Below are positions 2,652 through 13,322 of a stretch of DNA of 64,000 bases, piece by piece. The translations under genes and the position numbers were made by a program. How positions within the stretch are numbered: position 1 is the first letter of the stretch; every line of letters starts with the position of its first letter. The DNA comes from Nostoc cf. commune SO-36 (GTDB lineage Bacteria > Cyanobacteriota > Cyanobacteriia > Cyanobacteriales > Nostocaceae), in contig NZ_AP025732.1 in NCBI RefSeq assembly GCF_023734775.1, positions 4,958,501 to 5,022,500 on the forward strand, read 5' to 3'. The notes under the pieces are model-generated. The model saw only the letters and a program-made list of their open reading frames with translations, was not told the DNA's origin and searched no databases.

Positions 2652-3521
2652 TTAAGCTGCACAAAAAATCGGGGCAGGTTCCAAACCTGCCCCAACATCT
2701 GATATACTGCGCCCAACGGCTGTAGCTACAGGCTTTAAACTATCGACTAAATGCACCATATCTTCTAAAGAAAGCGCTTGACGGGCATCAGAAACAGATT
2801 TTTCTGGTTCTGGATGACATTCAATAATTAACCCATCAGCACCGCAAGCGATCGCAGCCCTAGCCACAGGTGCAACTAACTCCCGTTTCCCAACAGCATG
2901 GGAAGGATCTACAATCACAGGCAAGTGAGTTATTTGCTTGAGTGCTGCCACTGCCCCTAAATCTAGAACGTTGCGGGTGTAATCATCAAAACTGCGGATA
3001 CCTCTTTCGCACAACACCACATCAGGATTCCCGTGGCTGAGGATATATTCAGCAGCCATAACGAATTCTTCAATTGTCGCTGCTAACCCACGTTTGAGCA
3101 GTATTGGTTTACCAGCTTGTCCTAAAGCTTTGAGCAAGTCGAAGTTTTGCATATTACGACTACCAACTTGAAGCATATCAGCATGGGCAGCCACTACTTC
3201 AATTTGAGAAATTGACATAACCTCGGTGACAACCGGCATATTGTAATGCGATCGCACCCTTGCTAAAATTTCCAATCCTTCTTCTCCCATACCCTGGAAA
3301 GCGTAGGGAGATGTGCGGGGTTTGTAGACACCGCCACGCAACCCCTGCACGGATGCAGTAGATAGCTTTTGAGCGACTATCTCCATTTGTTCTAAACTTT
3401 CAACAGTACAGGGGCCGCCGATAATTACCAGTTCTTTGCCCCCGAAAGCGACTTTTTTTGAGATTTTAACGATTGTTTGGTGGTTCGGATGAGATTGTGC
3501 GGCAAGTTTGGCGTTAATCAT
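2652..3521 (-). CDS. aroF: 3-deoxy-7-phosphoheptulonate synthase (DAHP synthase, AroF/AroA(Ib) type)
   Basis: Condenses phosphoenolpyruvate and erythrose-4-phosphate, the first step of the shikimate pathway to Phe, Tyr and Trp. The 289-residue length and the motifs IIGGPCTVES, GGVYKPRTSPYAFQG, LQVGSRNMQNF, ILLKRG, PVIVDPSHAVGKRE and DGLIIECHPEP fit the short Ib-class enzyme, which lacks a large N-terminal allosteric domain. The first 20 residues look family-variable. ATG at 3521 follows AGGAGAACGAAACC, a good ribosome binding site. The gene is monocistronic here and sits behind two tandem attenuators (3567-3832), so aromatic charged-tRNA supply probably sets its transcription. aroE, another shikimate gene, is in this window at 50417-51316 but is unlinked. 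Confidence 0.93.
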   Translation of the reverse strand: MINAKLAAQSHPNHQTIVKISKKVAFGGKELVIIGGPCTVESLEQMEIVAQKLSTASVQGLRGGVYKPRTSPYAFQGMGEEGLEILARVRSHYNMPVVTEVMSISQIEVVAAHADMLQVGSRNMQNFDLLKALGQAGKPILLKRGLAATIEEFVMAAEYILSHGNPDVVLCERGIRSFDDYTRNVLDLGAVAALKQITHLPVIVDPSHAVGKRELVAPVARAAIACGADGLIIECHPEPEKSVSDARQALSLEDMVHLVDSLKPVATAVGRSISDVGAGLEPAPIFCAA

Positions 3522-3566
3522 GGTTTCGTTCTCCTAAAAATTGAGTATTGGGCACTGTTTTGCGAT

Positions 3567-3601
3567 AAAAAAAAGCCCGAAACCTTTGAAGAGTTCCGGG
3601 C
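3567..3601 (-). terminator. Attenuator 2 terminator upstream of aroF
   Basis: Read on the minus strand, GCCCGGAACT pairs with GGTTTCGGGC (10 bp with two G-U pairs) around the loop CTTCAAA, followed directly by eight T. It lies 45 bases before the aroF start codon. Its 5' arm CCCGGAA (3600-3594) can instead pair with TTCCGGG at 3639-3633, the last codons of leader peptide 2, giving a mutually exclusive antiterminator. Confidence 0.85.
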
Positions 3602-3629
3602 GCGTTCTGATTCATCGACATGACGCTAC

Positions 3630-3692
3630 TTACCCGGAATTTAGTCTGGGCCAAAAGTAAAAGCCATAAAACCAGCTATTCAAATAAGTCAT
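3630..3692 (-). CDS. Aromatic leader peptide 2 (attenuator of DAHP synthase)
   Basis: A 20-codon ORF, MTYLNSWFYGFYFWPRLNSG, preceded by AAGGAG 12 bases upstream. Seven of the eight residues from 7 to 14 are aromatic (W F Y G F Y F W). A ribosome stalled there for lack of charged tRNA(Phe/Tyr/Trp) would sit just upstream of TTCCGGG (3639-3633), leaving it free to pair with the 5' arm of terminator 2. This is the classical ribosome-mediated attenuation layout. A 14-bp stem with one mismatch (3701-3688 with 3624-3611) also encloses the ORF and covers its start codon. Function is inferred from architecture. Confidence 0.85.
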   Translation of the reverse strand: MTYLNSWFYGFYFWPRLNSG

Positions 3693-3710
3693 GACGATGA
3701 AATTCTCCTT

Positions 3711-3745
3711 AAAACAACAAAAACCGCAGAGTTCGCTCTGCGGTT
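3711..3745 (-). terminator. Attenuator 1 terminator upstream of aroF
   Basis: A perfect 10-bp hairpin on the minus strand, AACCGCAGAG-CGAA-CTCTGCGGTT, followed by TTTTGTTGTTTT. The 5' arm overlaps CCCGGTGAACC (3752-3742), which pairs perfectly over 11 bp with GGTTCACCGGG (3791-3781) inside leader peptide 1. The two structures exclude each other, as in a transcription attenuator. Between the antiterminator arms lies a small hairpin GTTTCC-TAAC-GGAAAC (3770-3755). Confidence 0.87.
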
Positions 3746-3775
3746 CACCGGGCGGTTTCCGTTAGGAAACTCAAT

Positions 3776-3832
3776 TCACTCCCGGTGAACCACCCTAAAC
3801 CAAAAATAAAAGTAGGAATTTGTCTTAAGCAT
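3776..3832 (-). CDS. Aromatic leader peptide 1 (upstream attenuator of DAHP synthase)
   Basis: An 18-codon ORF, MLKTNSYFYFWFRVVHRE, with six consecutive aromatic codons (Y F Y F W F). It overlaps the antiterminator arm GGTTCACCGGG, so ribosome stalling on the aromatic run would expose that arm. No strong Shine-Dalgarno is visible before ATG 3832. It is followed by its own terminator and then by a second, sequence-unrelated leader peptide of the same composition. The repeated aromatic run plus correctly placed alternative stems make chance unlikely. Confidence 0.83.
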   Translation of the reverse strand: MLKTNSYFYFWFRVVHRE

Positions 3833-3880
3833 TTGTGGGGTTTTTGCTGGAAAATCTAATAACTATACCTATGTAGCATA

Positions 3881-3909
3881 ACACTAGCAAGAAGAGTAAG
3901 CGGTGTCAA
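3881..3909 (-). promoter_or_regulatory. Probable promoter of the aroF leader
   Basis: On the minus strand TTGACA (3909-3904) is followed after 17 bases by TAGTGT (3886-3881), a sigma70-like arrangement with a weak -10. Transcription would start near 3874, about 40 bases before leader peptide 1, so both attenuators would be transcribed. Confidence 0.5.
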
Positions 3910-4120
3910 GACCCCCACAAACCAGAAAAAAGCGATAGACTCAGTACAAATGTGGGAGTCAAGACTAGTAAACAGGATTCAGAAGTTAAAATATATAATT
4001 CTCCTGAGTTGTCACCTCACCTTGTGAAAGCTTATTGCAGATAATTGACCATCGCCATCCATTATTCTTACCCAAGCCCTCATTGACCAGATCAACTTTT
4101 TAGGATCATTCAGTTTGATT

Positions 4121-8704: not shown

Positions 8705-10162
8705 ATGAGTACCACTACCTACGACCTAATTGCCAAGCTCTGGAATCTTTGTAACGTCCTCAAAGATGATGGCGTGACGTATCACCAATACGTCATTGAA
8801 CTGACGTACCTGCTGTTTCTGAAGATGGCGAAGGAAACCCGCACCGAAAACCTGCTTCCAGAGGGTTACCGCTGGGACGACTTGGAAGGCAAAGCAGCAA
8901 ATGAACGTCTGGATTTTTACAAACTGCTGTTGATCCACCTTGGTAGTCGCGGTTCTACGCTTGTTAAAGAAATTTTTGCCAACGCCAATTCCTCTATCAA
9001 CAAGCCCAATACACTTTCTACACTAGTTACTGAGATTGACAAGCTTGACTGGTATAGCGCCCGGCAAGAAGGATTGGGCGACGTGTATGAAGGGCTGCTG
9101 GAAAAGAATGCCAATGAAAAGAAATCCGGTGCTGGTCAGTACTTTACACCCCGTCCGCTGATCGATAGTATGGTGCATGTTATGCGCCCTACGTTGAAGG
9201 ACGTTATTCAAGACCCCGCAGCAGGAACAGGCGGTTTTTTAATCGCCGCCAATCGCTACATACGCGAAAACAGTGACCCGGATATCTGGACAGAAAAACA
9301 GCAACGCAAGTACCGTAGCAATACCTTCTACGGTATGGAGCATGTGCAGGACACGCACCGTCTGGCTTTAATGAATCTAATGCTGCATGGGCTAGAGTTT
9401 GACCCGCAAGGGGCAGGTATCCGCTACGGCGATACGCTTTCGCCAGAGGGAGAAGCATTGCCGAAAGCAACGCTGATCCTTACAAATCCACCTTTCGGCT
9501 CCAAGAAAGGGGGTGGCTTACCTACCCGCAAAGACTTTATTTTTCCTACCAGCAACAAACAATTTTGCTTTCTGCAACACATCTATGGTGGTCTCAAGCC
9601 TGGTGGTCGTGCTGCGGCCATTTTTCCAGACAATGTGTTGTTTGACAGCAATGTGGGTAAGCAGATTCGCACTGAATTAATGGAAAAGTGCAATCTACAT
9701 ACCATTCTCCGTCTACCAAGTGGTATTTTTTACGCTCACGGTGTTAAGACTAACGTGCTGTTTTTCACGCGTGGTAAAAAAGAAAAGAGTAATACCCAAG
9801 AAGTTTGGGTGTACGATCTGCGTGCTAACATATCGCAATTTGGCAAGCGCACTCAACTCACACGTAAGCACTTCGCCGAGTTTGAAGTTGCTTTTGGTGA
9901 TGACCCTTTTGGTAGCTCAGTAAGTCTTGTTAAGCGTGTAGATACTGGCGAACAAGGACGTTTTAGAAAATTTACTCGTGACTGGATCGGTGAGCGCAAT
10001 GAAAATCTGGATATTTCCTGGCTTAAATACGAAGACGAAGGTGACATAAATGCACTACTCCAACCAGCAAAACTCGTACAAGAAGCAATGGGCGAACTGG
10101 AAGCCGCTCTGGAAGAATTGCGCGGGATTTTGGAAGAGTTGGGAGAGGAAGTTGAAGCGTGA
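8705..10162 (+). CDS. hsdM: Type I modification methylase, HsdM
   Basis: 485 residues. Residues about 1-120 resemble the HsdM N-terminal helical domain (LWNLCNVLKDDGVTYHQYVIELTYLLFLKMAKE). The N6-adenine methyltransferase domain follows, with the SAM motif DPAAGTGGFL, the catalytic motif NPPFG and the partner sequence GQYFTPRPLI. The C-terminal region is helical and acidic. It transfers a methyl group to adenine in the site read by HsdS. The stop overlaps the GTG start of hsdS (GTGA), so the two are co-translated. The gene looks intact. Confidence 0.93.
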   Translation: MSTTTYDLIAKLWNLCNVLKDDGVTYHQYVIELTYLLFLKMAKETRTENLLPEGYRWDDLEGKAANERLDFYKLLLIHLGSRGSTLVKEIFANANSSINKPNTLSTLVTEIDKLDWYSARQEGLGDVYEGLLEKNANEKKSGAGQYFTPRPLIDSMVHVMRPTLKDVIQDPAAGTGGFLIAANRYIRENSDPDIWTEKQQRKYRSNTFYGMEHVQDTHRLALMNLMLHGLEFDPQGAGIRYGDTLSPEGEALPKATLILTNPPFGSKKGGGLPTRKDFIFPTSNKQFCFLQHIYGGLKPGGRAAAIFPDNVLFDSNVGKQIRTELMEKCNLHTILRLPSGIFYAHGVKTNVLFFTRGKKEKSNTQEVWVYDLRANISQFGKRTQLTRKHFAEFEVAFGDDPFGSSVSLVKRVDTGEQGRFRKFTRDWIGERNENLDISWLKYEDEGDINALLQPAKLVQEAMGELEAALEELRGILEELGEEVEA

Positions 10163-11691
10163 ACGAACTTCCTGAAGGCTGGACGCTAACCAAGTTTATG
10201 GATGTATATGATATTCAGGGTGGTACACAGCCTCCCAAAAGTAACTTCCAATATGAACCCCAGCCTGGTTACATACAACTGTTACAGATTCGGGACTTTG
10301 GTGAACGCCCTGTTCCTACTTACATTCGCGATACACATACTATAAAAAAATGTACTGAGCAAGACATTCTCATTGCCAGATATGGCGCATCTTTAGGACG
10401 AATATTAACAGGGCTTTCTGGTGCTTATAATGTGGCAATGGCAAAGGTAGATATTCCAGAAGCAATAGATAGGCGGTTTGTATATCATCTATTGAGGTCT
10501 GAGATATTTCAAGCACCATTGCGTCTAGTTTCTCGTTCAGCTCAAAATGGATTTAATAAGAAAGATATTGCCGAGATTGAACTTCCCCTCGCCCCACTCA
10601 ATGAACAAAAACGCATTGCTGATAAGCTCGATGCCCTGCTTACAAGGGTTGATGCCTGCCGAAAGAAACTGGATCTTATCCCCTTCATTCTCAAACGCTT
10701 TCGCCAAGCCGTTCTTACTGCTGCAAAATCAGGGCAACTTACCGAGGATTGGCGGACATCTCATGAATCGACTCAATGGCAAAGGTTGTCATTAAGTGAA
10801 ATATGTCGCTCGATCACCGATGGCGATCACCAAGCTCCGCCGCAAACGGAACGAGGCATTCCGTTTATCACCATTGCGGCGATCAATGATGGGCGCTTGC
10901 GAATAGATAAGGCTACTCGTTTTGTTCCATCTGTATACTTTGAGAATCTGAAAGCCTCACGAAAGCCTGAGATAGACGATATCTTGTTTTCGGTAACAGG
11001 CTCAATCGCAATCTCAGCTGTTGTAGACACTAACGAGCCATTTATATTTCAACGTCATATTGCAATCTTGAAGCCGGATTTGTCTCGAATATCTAGCAGC
11101 TTCCTTCGTTATGCGCTTGAGACAGAGGACATAAAGAAGCAAGCCCTATCTGTGGCAACAGGAACAGCACAGCTAACAATACCATTATCTGGGCTTAGAA
11201 CATTAACAATCGATGTTCCCGCACGAGACGAACAGGACGAAATCGTCAGCCGTATTGAAGCTCTTTTCGCCTATGCTGATCGCCTCCAAACTCACTATCA
11301 ATCCGCCTACACCCAGGTTGAGCTTTTAACACCCAAACTCTTGGCTAAAGCTTTGTGCGGCGAACTTGTCCCCCAAGACCCCAAAGATGAACCAGCATCG
11401 GTACTGTTGGAGAGGATTCGCACTGAACGAGCAGCAAAACTTTCCAAACCCAAGACTCAAGCTCTCAGAAAACCAATTATGACCAAAATGACCAAAGAAT
11501 CTGTGAAGGAAGCAATTCGGCAATTACCTAAGAACAAATTTTCATTTGATGAACTGCGTGAAAACCTCACTGGTGATTATGACTCCCTAAAGGATATCCT
11601 GTTTACACTCCTCAGTGAAGCCGAGCCAATTCTTACGCAGGTTTTTGATCAAGAGGAGCGAGCAATGCGTTTTTTTCGGGCAGGCAAATGA
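10159..11691 (+). CDS. hsdS: Type I specificity subunit HsdS with a C-terminal extension
   Basis: 510 residues. Target recognition domain 1 lies at about 1-140, and a helical spacer (LAPLNEQKRIADKLDALLTR) at about 145-200. TRD2 is at about 205-350, and a second spacer (RDEQDEIVSRIEALFAYADR) at about 355-400. The protein reads a bipartite DNA target. After residue 425 there is an extra, about 80-residue segment (KESVKEAIRQLPKNKFSFDE onward) that looks like a winged helix and is not part of classical HsdS. Start GTG overlaps the hsdM stop, and the stop overlaps the ATPase start (ATGA). The extension may couple HsdMS to the downstream ATPase (inference). Confidence 0.9.
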   Translation: MNELPEGWTLTKFMDVYDIQGGTQPPKSNFQYEPQPGYIQLLQIRDFGERPVPTYIRDTHTIKKCTEQDILIARYGASLGRILTGLSGAYNVAMAKVDIPEAIDRRFVYHLLRSEIFQAPLRLVSRSAQNGFNKKDIAEIELPLAPLNEQKRIADKLDALLTRVDACRKKLDLIPFILKRFRQAVLTAAKSGQLTEDWRTSHESTQWQRLSLSEICRSITDGDHQAPPQTERGIPFITIAAINDGRLRIDKATRFVPSVYFENLKASRKPEIDDILFSVTGSIAISAVVDTNEPFIFQRHIAILKPDLSRISSSFLRYALETEDIKKQALSVATGTAQLTIPLSGLRTLTIDVPARDEQDEIVSRIEALFAYADRLQTHYQSAYTQVELLTPKLLAKALCGELVPQDPKDEPASVLLERIRTERAAKLSKPKTQALRKPIMTKMTKESVKEAIRQLPKNKFSFDELRENLTGDYDSLKDILFTLLSEAEPILTQVFDQEERAMRFFRAGK

Positions 11692-13322
11692 AGCTTTTAA
11701 GGGTTCACATCATTTCTGCTAAAACCTGCGGGGGGCTACTTGATGGACTGAACTTACAGTTACGAAGTCCATTTAATGGCTATTCTGGGTTTGCTCCTCT
11801 ATGTCTTATTGGGCCAAATGGCGCAGGTAAATCTCAATTCTTGCAAGTGCTAACAGAAATTTTTCAGTCTGTGTTTCACAGGTGCATTCCTGATGAAGAA
11901 CGTGTCGAAGGAAATCCCGACTTGCTATTCGAGCTTGAGTACCTCATTCACCCAGAAGATGAGCAGCTACCTGTGCGTGTTCGCATTTCACAGAAAGCCA
12001 GTGGTAAAAATCGTCCAACACTTTTAATTGAGCGGAGAGATGAAGATGAATACGACTGGATAGACTGTGACTTGAACGCTCTTGAGACCCATACACTTTT
12101 GCCTCAAAAGATTGTTGGCTACACATCAGGCGATAATGAAACGCTCAGTTTACCTTTCCTCTTAAGTCGCAGTGGGTATGCGAAGGATGTGACCGAAAGT
12201 GCATTAAAGGAGCCAAAACCCGTTCCAGACACTCGGCTGATGCTGATTGACTATGGAACGCATCTTGAGGTTTTTGTAGCAAATCTCCTGTTGGGTGAAG
12301 CTTCTCAGTGGGATTTTCTGCTAAAGGATGCAAAACTGCAAAATCTTCACTCATTTCGTTGCGTAGTCCAACTTGCACACAGTGCAGCCCCAAATAATCC
12401 GAATACGAATAAGGGCAAACCTAATAACAGGCCAAAAGAAGTTCTGCTTACAGAGGAACTCAAAACTTATCTTGACCAGTTCAAGCGCTGTGCTACTTGC
12501 TATAGTTATGACGATAGGACAAAAACTTATACCTTTGACTATTGGATCAATGACCATACGAGGGAAGGGTTTCGCTTGTTTTGGGACAACACGCTTGATC
12601 TGTACTCCTCATTCCACAAGTTCGCAATGTTAAACGACTTGGTACTTCCTAAGAAGACCCGTGAGCGGTTTCGGAAAGATACCAAATCGAGAAGGTTTGC
12701 TTCACGTCTTCCAGAGCCTCAAGATGAGGATAAAGTTTTCCGATTTGAAAGCGTTATGTTTACTGCTCAAAGGACTGGTAAAGAGGTAGACTACGTATCG
12801 CTTTCCGATGGCGAGCATCAGCTTGGGCAGATTCTTGGAACGTTTTGTATGTTGTCATTTCCTAACGTACTTTTCTTGCTTGATGAACCTGAGTCGCATT
12901 TCAATCCGCTATGGCGGGTAAAGTTCATTTCACGCATATTGGATCTGCCGACTATACATGGCGATCGCAGAGAATCAGCTAAAGCTACTGAACAAGAGTG
13001 CTTACTAACAACACACTCGCCTTTCGTCCCCTCAGATATGCATAGAGACAAAGTTTTTATTTTTAGCAAAGACGAAGAAGGGAAGATTCAAGTCCAAAAT
13101 CCTAATATTGAGACATTTGGCACTACATTCGACACAATCATTGAGGAATGCTTTAACGTTCGCCCACCTATGTCACAAGTTCCTCATGATGAGATTAAAA
13201 GGCTTATGGAGAGTGAAAATCCCGAAGAGATTAGGGCAGGGATGCAGCATCTTGGTGATTCTGTCGAGAAAGCATTTCTTGTTGATCGACTGTTGCAGCT
13301 AACAAATAGGGATGAGGTGTAG
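11688..13322 (+). CDS. AAA/ABC-type ATPase, restriction-associated, PtuA-like
   Basis: 544 residues of SMC/OLD-like ATPase. Walker A is GPNGAGKS at 42-49, the signature LSDGEHQLGQ at about 372, and Walker B VLFLLDEPESHFN at about 393-405. A switch histidine lies in LLTTHSPFVPSD. A family named restriction-system-associated AAA ATPase exists next to type I loci (from memory). Pairing with a downstream HNH protein is the layout of Septu PtuA-PtuB. It overlaps hsdS by four bases and the HNH gene by up to eleven, so this is one translationally coupled operon. Probably the sensor or gate of a nuclease complex (inference). Confidence 0.82.
   Translation: MKLLRVHIISAKTCGGLLDGLNLQLRSPFNGYSGFAPLCLIGPNGAGKSQFLQVLTEIFQSVFHRCIPDEERVEGNPDLLFELEYLIHPEDEQLPVRVRISQKASGKNRPTLLIERRDEDEYDWIDCDLNALETHTLLPQKIVGYTSGDNETLSLPFLLSRSGYAKDVTESALKEPKPVPDTRLMLIDYGTHLEVFVANLLLGEASQWDFLLKDAKLQNLHSFRCVVQLAHSAAPNNPNTNKGKPNNRPKEVLLTEELKTYLDQFKRCATCYSYDDRTKTYTFDYWINDHTREGFRLFWDNTLDLYSSFHKFAMLNDLVLPKKTRERFRKDTKSRRFASRLPEPQDEDKVFRFESVMFTAQRTGKEVDYVSLSDGEHQLGQILGTFCMLSFPNVLFLLDEPESHFNPLWRVKFISRILDLPTIHGDRRESAKATEQECLLTTHSPFVPSDMHRDKVFIFSKDEEGKIQVQNPNIETFGTTFDTIIEECFNVRPPMSQVPHDEIKRLMESENPEEIRAGMQHLGDSVEKAFLVDRLLQLTNRDEV

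Follow-up and report, generated by a model that had tools for sequence, protein, structure and literature searches.

Two attenuators predicted in series in the conserved aromatic leader of a cyanobacterial DAHP synthase gene

The DAHP synthase gene aroF of Nostoc cf. commune SO-36 is preceded on the minus strand by a leader of approximately 350 nt that carries two attenuator units in series. We consider it very probable that these are two ribosome-mediated transcription attenuators of the trp/phe type with the same specificity. The window analyzed is a stretch of 64,000 nt (NZ_AP025732.1, GCF_023734775.1, positions 4,958,501 to 5,022,500, forward strand), and coordinates below are those of the window. 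In each unit, a ribosome would follow the advancing RNA polymerase and translate a mini-ORF with many Phe, Tyr, and Trp codons. When the charged tRNA of one or more of these amino acids ran short, the ribosome would wait on an aromatic codon and leave the end of the ORF bare, and this bare arm would pair with the next segment as an antiterminator, so that the terminator could not form. With all three charged tRNAs plentiful, the ribosome would reach the stop codon and cover the arm, and the terminator would form. Because the units stand in series with the same codons, the polymerase would have to pass both terminators, and aroF would be made only with both units in the read-through state. If the units act independently, their readthroughs would multiply, which would keep leakage low and make the response to one and the same signal steeper. 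An AND gate or a steeper response is a deduction from the layout in series.

The aroF gene (2652..3521, minus strand) encodes a product of 289 aa that was identified by TIGR01361 (365 bits, cut-off 268) and PF00793 and that lacks the ferredoxin-like domain PF18152 in a domain search. Four DAHP synthases are encoded in the genome; PF18152 is present in two paralogues and absent from aroF and the fourth. No aromatic leader ORF was found in the 600 nt upstream of any of the three paralogous genes. Elsewhere in the window, the ORFs at 8705-13322 presumably encode the methylase and the specificity subunit of a type I restriction-modification-like pair and, after these, an ATP-binding protein.

The initial annotation had described two complete units on the minus strand, and all of their parts were found. 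Leader ORF 1 (3776..3832, MLKTNSYFYFWFRVVHRE) contains 3 Phe, 2 Tyr, and 1 Trp codons, in columns that are kept as aromatic codons among the orthologues. The 5' arm of antiterminator 1 (GGTTCACCGGG, 3791-3781) lies within the last codons of ORF 1 and pairs over 11 bp with a 3' arm (CCCGGTGAACC, 3752-3742) that overlaps terminator 1; both arms are supported by covariation. Covariation and a terminator scan support the intrinsic terminator 1, whose stem-loop (3746-3721) has 11 pairs with G-T allowed and whose T-rich tail (TTGTTGTTTT) continues below 3721. No obvious Shine-Dalgarno sequence precedes ORF 1 in the window. An AGGAG motif is located upstream of the ATG of leader ORF 2 (3630..3692, MTYLNSWFYGFYFWPRLNSG), which contains 3 Phe, 3 Tyr, and 2 Trp codons, again in conserved aromatic columns. 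Antiterminator 2 has 7 bp, also supported by covariation: its 5' arm TTCCGGG (3639-3633) is immediately 5' of the ORF 2 stop codon, and its 3' arm CCCGGAA (3600-3594) is entirely within the 5' arm of terminator 2. The latter (3567..3601; covariation and terminator scan) has a stem of 10 pairs (3601-3575) followed by eight T. In addition, CATGAC at the start of ORF 2 in the window is complementary to GTCATG just past the ORF 2 stop codon, possibly forming a protector stem.

Five mini-ORFs of 12-40 codons with at least 6 aromatic codons within 8 are present in the 64-kb window, and a perfect terminator stem follows only ORF 1 and ORF 2. Twenty first-order Markov sequences, each as long as the window, contained 0.80 such ORFs per 64 kb, none of them with a terminator. 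The terminator scan by itself was weak (2 found versus 1.1 expected in shuffles); the case for the units is carried by conservation and covariation.

Upstream of unit 1, a pattern match revealed a promoter-like element (3881..3909, minus strand) composed of TTGACA (3909-3904), a 17-nt spacer, and TAGTGT (3886-3881), with TG one base before the second hexamer. The pattern TTGACA-N14-TGNTA occurs exactly at 3909-3885; as it has 6 matches in the window at ≤1 mismatch versus 5.9 expected, the match alone is not evidence for a promoter. A consensus promoter scan did not list the site at 3881-3909. Across the orthologues, TTGACN-N14/15-TGNTA was found at most 140 nt from unit 1 in 198 of 218 unit-1 leaders, versus 7 of 4360 shuffles, and within 200 nt in two of the six unit-2-only leaders (L153 and L227). 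The initial annotation presupposed that transcription does not start downstream of 3630, and as far as the sequence tells, the position of TTGACA-N17-TAGTGT above unit 1 and its recurrence among relatives agree with this. Just above the -35 box (3910-3985, minus strand), a TCTATCG element is common to near relatives; it is present within 75 nt above the promoter pattern in 50 of 196 leaders and could be a regulator site.

Orthologues were chosen by aroF protein match and not by leader. Among the matches listed, 226 orthologue leaders were readable: 215 carried both units, five only unit 1, six only unit 2, and none neither. This alignment of orthologue leaders had been set in advance as a check on the initial annotation, which it bears out, with conserved units and covariation in both antiterminators and both terminators. 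In the best 80 listed loci from Nostocales and related organisms, both units were present in all 76 that were readable. Within the order, 64 of 70 leaders had both units, five only unit 2, and one only unit 1; these were 70 of the 73 near-full matches listed, with at least 69% identity, and the fragment G196 was left out. Outside the order, 80 leaders drawn from 95 genomes comprised 75 with both units, four with unit 1 only (all from family f43), and one with unit 2 only, and both units were present in 10 families. The script-based unit calls were revised by eye in L026, L147, L128, L129, L131, L150, and L230. Four leaders were dropped before the count, three with too short an upstream region (L044, L072, and L078) and one consisting entirely of N (L098), and G212 was left out for too little sequence. 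L296 (genome G176) has both units by eye and stands outside the 226. The tandem leaders were distinct in 213 of 215 cases, although the orthologue sets may share species. Between stop 1 and start 2, the median distance was 87 nt, with 5% and 95% points of 77 and 144 nt. Short repeats were observed between the two units in L112, with both switches intact, and between unit 2 and aroF in L154.

The possibility that the second unit is a redundant backup needs to be weighed against these counts. Either ordinary attenuator would then nearly suffice, and the pair would only tighten the shut-off, with no special logic. Single-unit leaders (11 of 226), which count against the necessity of the tandem, are of both kinds, so that one unit can suffice in some lineages. 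Weak redundancy predicts otherwise than what is found in the remaining leaders, where both units are kept and are structurally constrained over the 10 families outside the order. We regard this explanation as possible, with rather less than an even chance. A protein tree of 45 aroF sequences with an outgroup of two paralogues placed several single-unit forms together with tandem forms inside well-supported clades, namely f43 with G390, G028 with G088, G169 with G129, G096 with G113 and G121, and G448 with G385 and G408. The tree left the single-unit G022 and G043 unplaced and the deepest forks unsettled. As several single-unit forms are nested among tandem clades, the tandem form looks ancestral here and the single units look like losses.

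The leader peptides point to sensing by codons. ORF 1 contains on average 3.2 Phe, 2.2 Tyr, and 1.15 Trp codons, and ORF 2 contains 3.8 Phe, 2.4 Tyr, and 1.7 Trp codons. That both peptides combine all three amino acids, as initially proposed, was borne out in the window and is kept among the orthologues (190 of 194 distinct ORF 1 and 198 of 202 distinct ORF 2). In both ORFs the aromatic columns remain aromatic while exchanging F, Y, and W as well as synonymous codons, which favors the sensing of charged tRNA by codon over a fixed arrest peptide. Nascent-chain arrest is known from TnaC, in which a free amino acid serves as ligand. Applied to the aroF leader, the peptide sequence itself would stall the ribosome, perhaps with a free aromatic amino acid as ligand, rather than a lack of charged tRNA. 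Strongly preferred positions would fit such a peptide: Trp is found eight codons before the ORF 1 stop (136 of 155) and seven codons before the ORF 2 stop (137 of 176), and Gly 11 codons before the ORF 2 stop (103 of 176). Phe, Tyr, and Trp, however, interchange in nearly every aromatic column, the peptide tails are variable or dictated by the RNA arm, and codons are gained and lost while the unit stays intact. Arrest by the nascent chain is therefore improbable in our view.

All four helices covary, far above their slid versions. Antiterminator 1 was paired in 93.4% of 516 cells (47 representatives) compared to 27.9-52.3% when slid, with 55 two-sided changes versus 18.5 in shuffles. For terminator 1, 89.7% of the cells were paired and 26 two-sided changes were counted versus 9.7 in shuffles (47 representatives); the innermost position did not pair in 25 of 47 rows and the next one in 17 of 47. 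Antiterminator 2 was paired in 95.0% of 484 cells, with 24 two-sided changes versus 6.1, and terminator 2 in 94.4%, with 44 versus 13.9 (70 representatives each). Shuffle counts inflate significance for related sequences, and the slid controls agree with them. The underlying alignments comprise 47 of 49 chosen representatives (A1; L175 and L182 left out) and 70 of 71 (A2; L066 left out), and the same arms are present in the omitted leaders. Unaided, RNAalifold recovered antiterminator 1, terminator 1, and terminator 2; antiterminator 2, which is incompatible with terminator 2, was not drawn.

In a dealing control, 3' arms were reassigned among loci and the pairing score was compared with that of the own partner. 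The antiterminators scored 26.6 with their own partner versus 22.2 when dealt (sd 0.2) in unit 1, and 22.6 versus 20.5 (sd 0.1) in unit 2. Cross-pairing between unit 1 and unit 2 showed no excess (14.3 versus 14.2 dealt, sd 0.1). The own-partner excess together with the missing cross-pairing excess indicates that the units are separate. A 1:2 protector hairpin gave a weak signal in unit 2 (12.6 versus 11.7 dealt, sd 0.2) and little in unit 1.

Covariation of all stems, and the fact that the antiterminators can form without a ribosome, would also suit an untranslated leader with incidental ORFs, acting as a riboswitch or by binding a protein. Such a leader does not account for an aromatic codon class that is kept with third-position variation, for an ATG start in 190 of 194 ORF 1, or for the fixed distance from the last Trp to the stop, which is eight codons in ORF 1 (160 of 194) and seven in ORF 2 (160 of 202). 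Moreover, a search of window positions 3400-4100 against Rfam, known leader and T-box families included, gave no family at gathering score; relaxed thresholds yielded two weak matches, snoR31 (18.7 bits, cut-off 44) and NsiR1 (18.2 bits, cut-off 39). An untranslated leader thus appears highly improbable.

For translated units, the stall geometry was calculated with a fixed footprint, the ribosome being assumed to mask 12 nt from the first base of the A-site codon. PMC3641672 gives a ribosome footprint of 12-15 nt from the P site. In this model, the antiterminator arm would be free with the ribosome on an aromatic codon and covered with the ribosome at the stop codon in both units. When the RNA was truncated just 5' of the terminator's 3' arm, a ribosome stalled on an aromatic codon left at least five antiterminator pairs in 94-99% of cases for unit 1 and 95-97% for unit 2. 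With the ribosome at the stop codon, at least five pairs were left in 0 of 217 (unit 1) and 0 of 218 (unit 2), zeros that are partly built in by the assumed footprint. In the full RNA at equilibrium, the antiterminator beat the terminator in 74-82% of aromatic stalls in unit 1 and in 30-37% in unit 2. For the window copy, terminator 2 won at every stall position, with 0-0.8 pairs of antiterminator 2. As equilibrium refolding favors terminator 2, unit 2 would have to act kinetically, during transcription; it would work only if an early-formed antiterminator 2 persists until the polymerase has passed. The modeled stall on the single Trp codon of unit 1 left an overlap with the terminator of 3.9 pairs, versus 6.4 for Tyr and 5.3 for Phe. 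A Trp stall would hide part of the arm, and unit 1 is therefore predicted to answer less to Trp. The modeled overlap in unit 2 was nearly equal for all three aromatic stalls (8.1-8.3).

RNA models were searched in 194 genomes of the class. Model R1 gave 72 matches, 68 of which adjoin a listed aroF; of the other four, those in G298 and G344 precede an aroF truncated by the end of the contig, that in G094 precedes a remnant of aroF, and that in G361 lies at a contig end with nothing visible beyond it. Model R2 gave 69 matches, 65 adjoining a listed aroF, and the other four comprise G344 (aroF cut by the contig end), G361 (contig end), and two weak ones elsewhere with no aroF near, one in G342 (E 7e-4) and one in G311 (E 0.008) that is the second match of that genome. 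Across the phylum, R2 matched in 28 of 194 genomes, and four of these belong to family f63, outside the class (E 7e-5 to 9e-4). Inspected by eye, the four matches were located in other genes or beside a tRNA-like gene, and the 2.6 kb taken for each contained no aroF; they were taken as false and rejected as a spread beyond the class. In the G094 locus (L252, 1823-2150), a unit-1 leader passes in mid-terminator straight into a broken aroF piece, 63.6% identical over residues 46-104, and neither unit 2 nor the start of the gene is present. Cross-scores between the units were 11.2 bits (E 4.4) for R1 on unit 2 and 14.3 bits (E 0.087) for R2 on unit 1, the latter being the best other R2 match in the window. 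Because aromatic codons are common to both units, these scores can at best hint at an origin by duplication.

Known examples of amino-acid attenuation come mainly from other phyla, in leaders with a single unit. The trp, phe, and ilv attenuators of enterobacteria, which are single units, resemble each aroF unit in having an ORF with codons for the end product, a mutually exclusive antiterminator and terminator, and an arm covered at the stop. The aroF leader differs in placing two units in series, each ORF mixing Phe, Tyr, and Trp. Tandem attenuators for different signals have been described for Salmonella mgtCBR, called a "singular example" in the abstract of PMC3641672, where mgtM and mgtP sense ATP and proline and act additively. 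Like the aroF leader, mgtCBR has two short ORFs with a switch each, one of which senses charged tRNA, and its stem-loops are unlike intrinsic terminators. In contrast, both aroF units address the same three amino acids and have an intrinsic terminator each; ORFs for different signals are not apparent from the codon content, with all three amino acids in 190/194 and 198/202 ORFs. The initial annotation described classical attenuators as single; a tandem layout has a precedent in mgtCBR (PMC3641672).

The tandem riboswitches of Bacillus clausii metE, named in PMC3641672, are similar in that two switches and two intrinsic terminators follow each other in one leader; they differ, as outlined there, in sensing two different ligands directly and without a leader peptide. 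Single candidate leaders of aroF have been proposed in Corynebacterium glutamicum (Phe-Tyr-Phe; PMC4046766), Acholeplasma (uORFC-13-1; PMC8632094), and Shewanella (PMC2659441). All three are predicted to attenuate DAHP synthase by aromatic codons of a leader ORF or by tRNA-Tyr sensing. They have one unit each as described and belong to other phyla, and kinship with the aroF leader is not implied. No attenuator of a cyanobacterial DAHP synthase gene was found among the papers listed by one open-licence library, subscription papers and preprints being outside the scope of this search.

The leader stands on a DAHP synthase without the ferredoxin-like domain, and the two domain-bearing paralogues of the same genome have no such leader. 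A further reading, which we put forward only tentatively, is that an attenuator with two stages and one specificity, of long standing in cyanobacteria, replaces the feedback of the domain-less enzyme and combines a mainly Phe/Tyr unit with an all-aromatic one in a differently tuned AND. If so, differently tuned units in series would make entry into the shikimate pathway graded or subject to a threshold. As a conserved two-unit leader of one specificity, it offers a clean natural case for asking whether serial attenuators buy lower leakage, steepness, or logic, and the eleven single-unit relatives are natural controls. The finding bears on how cyanobacteria may control entry into aromatic synthesis, which is a target of metabolic engineering.
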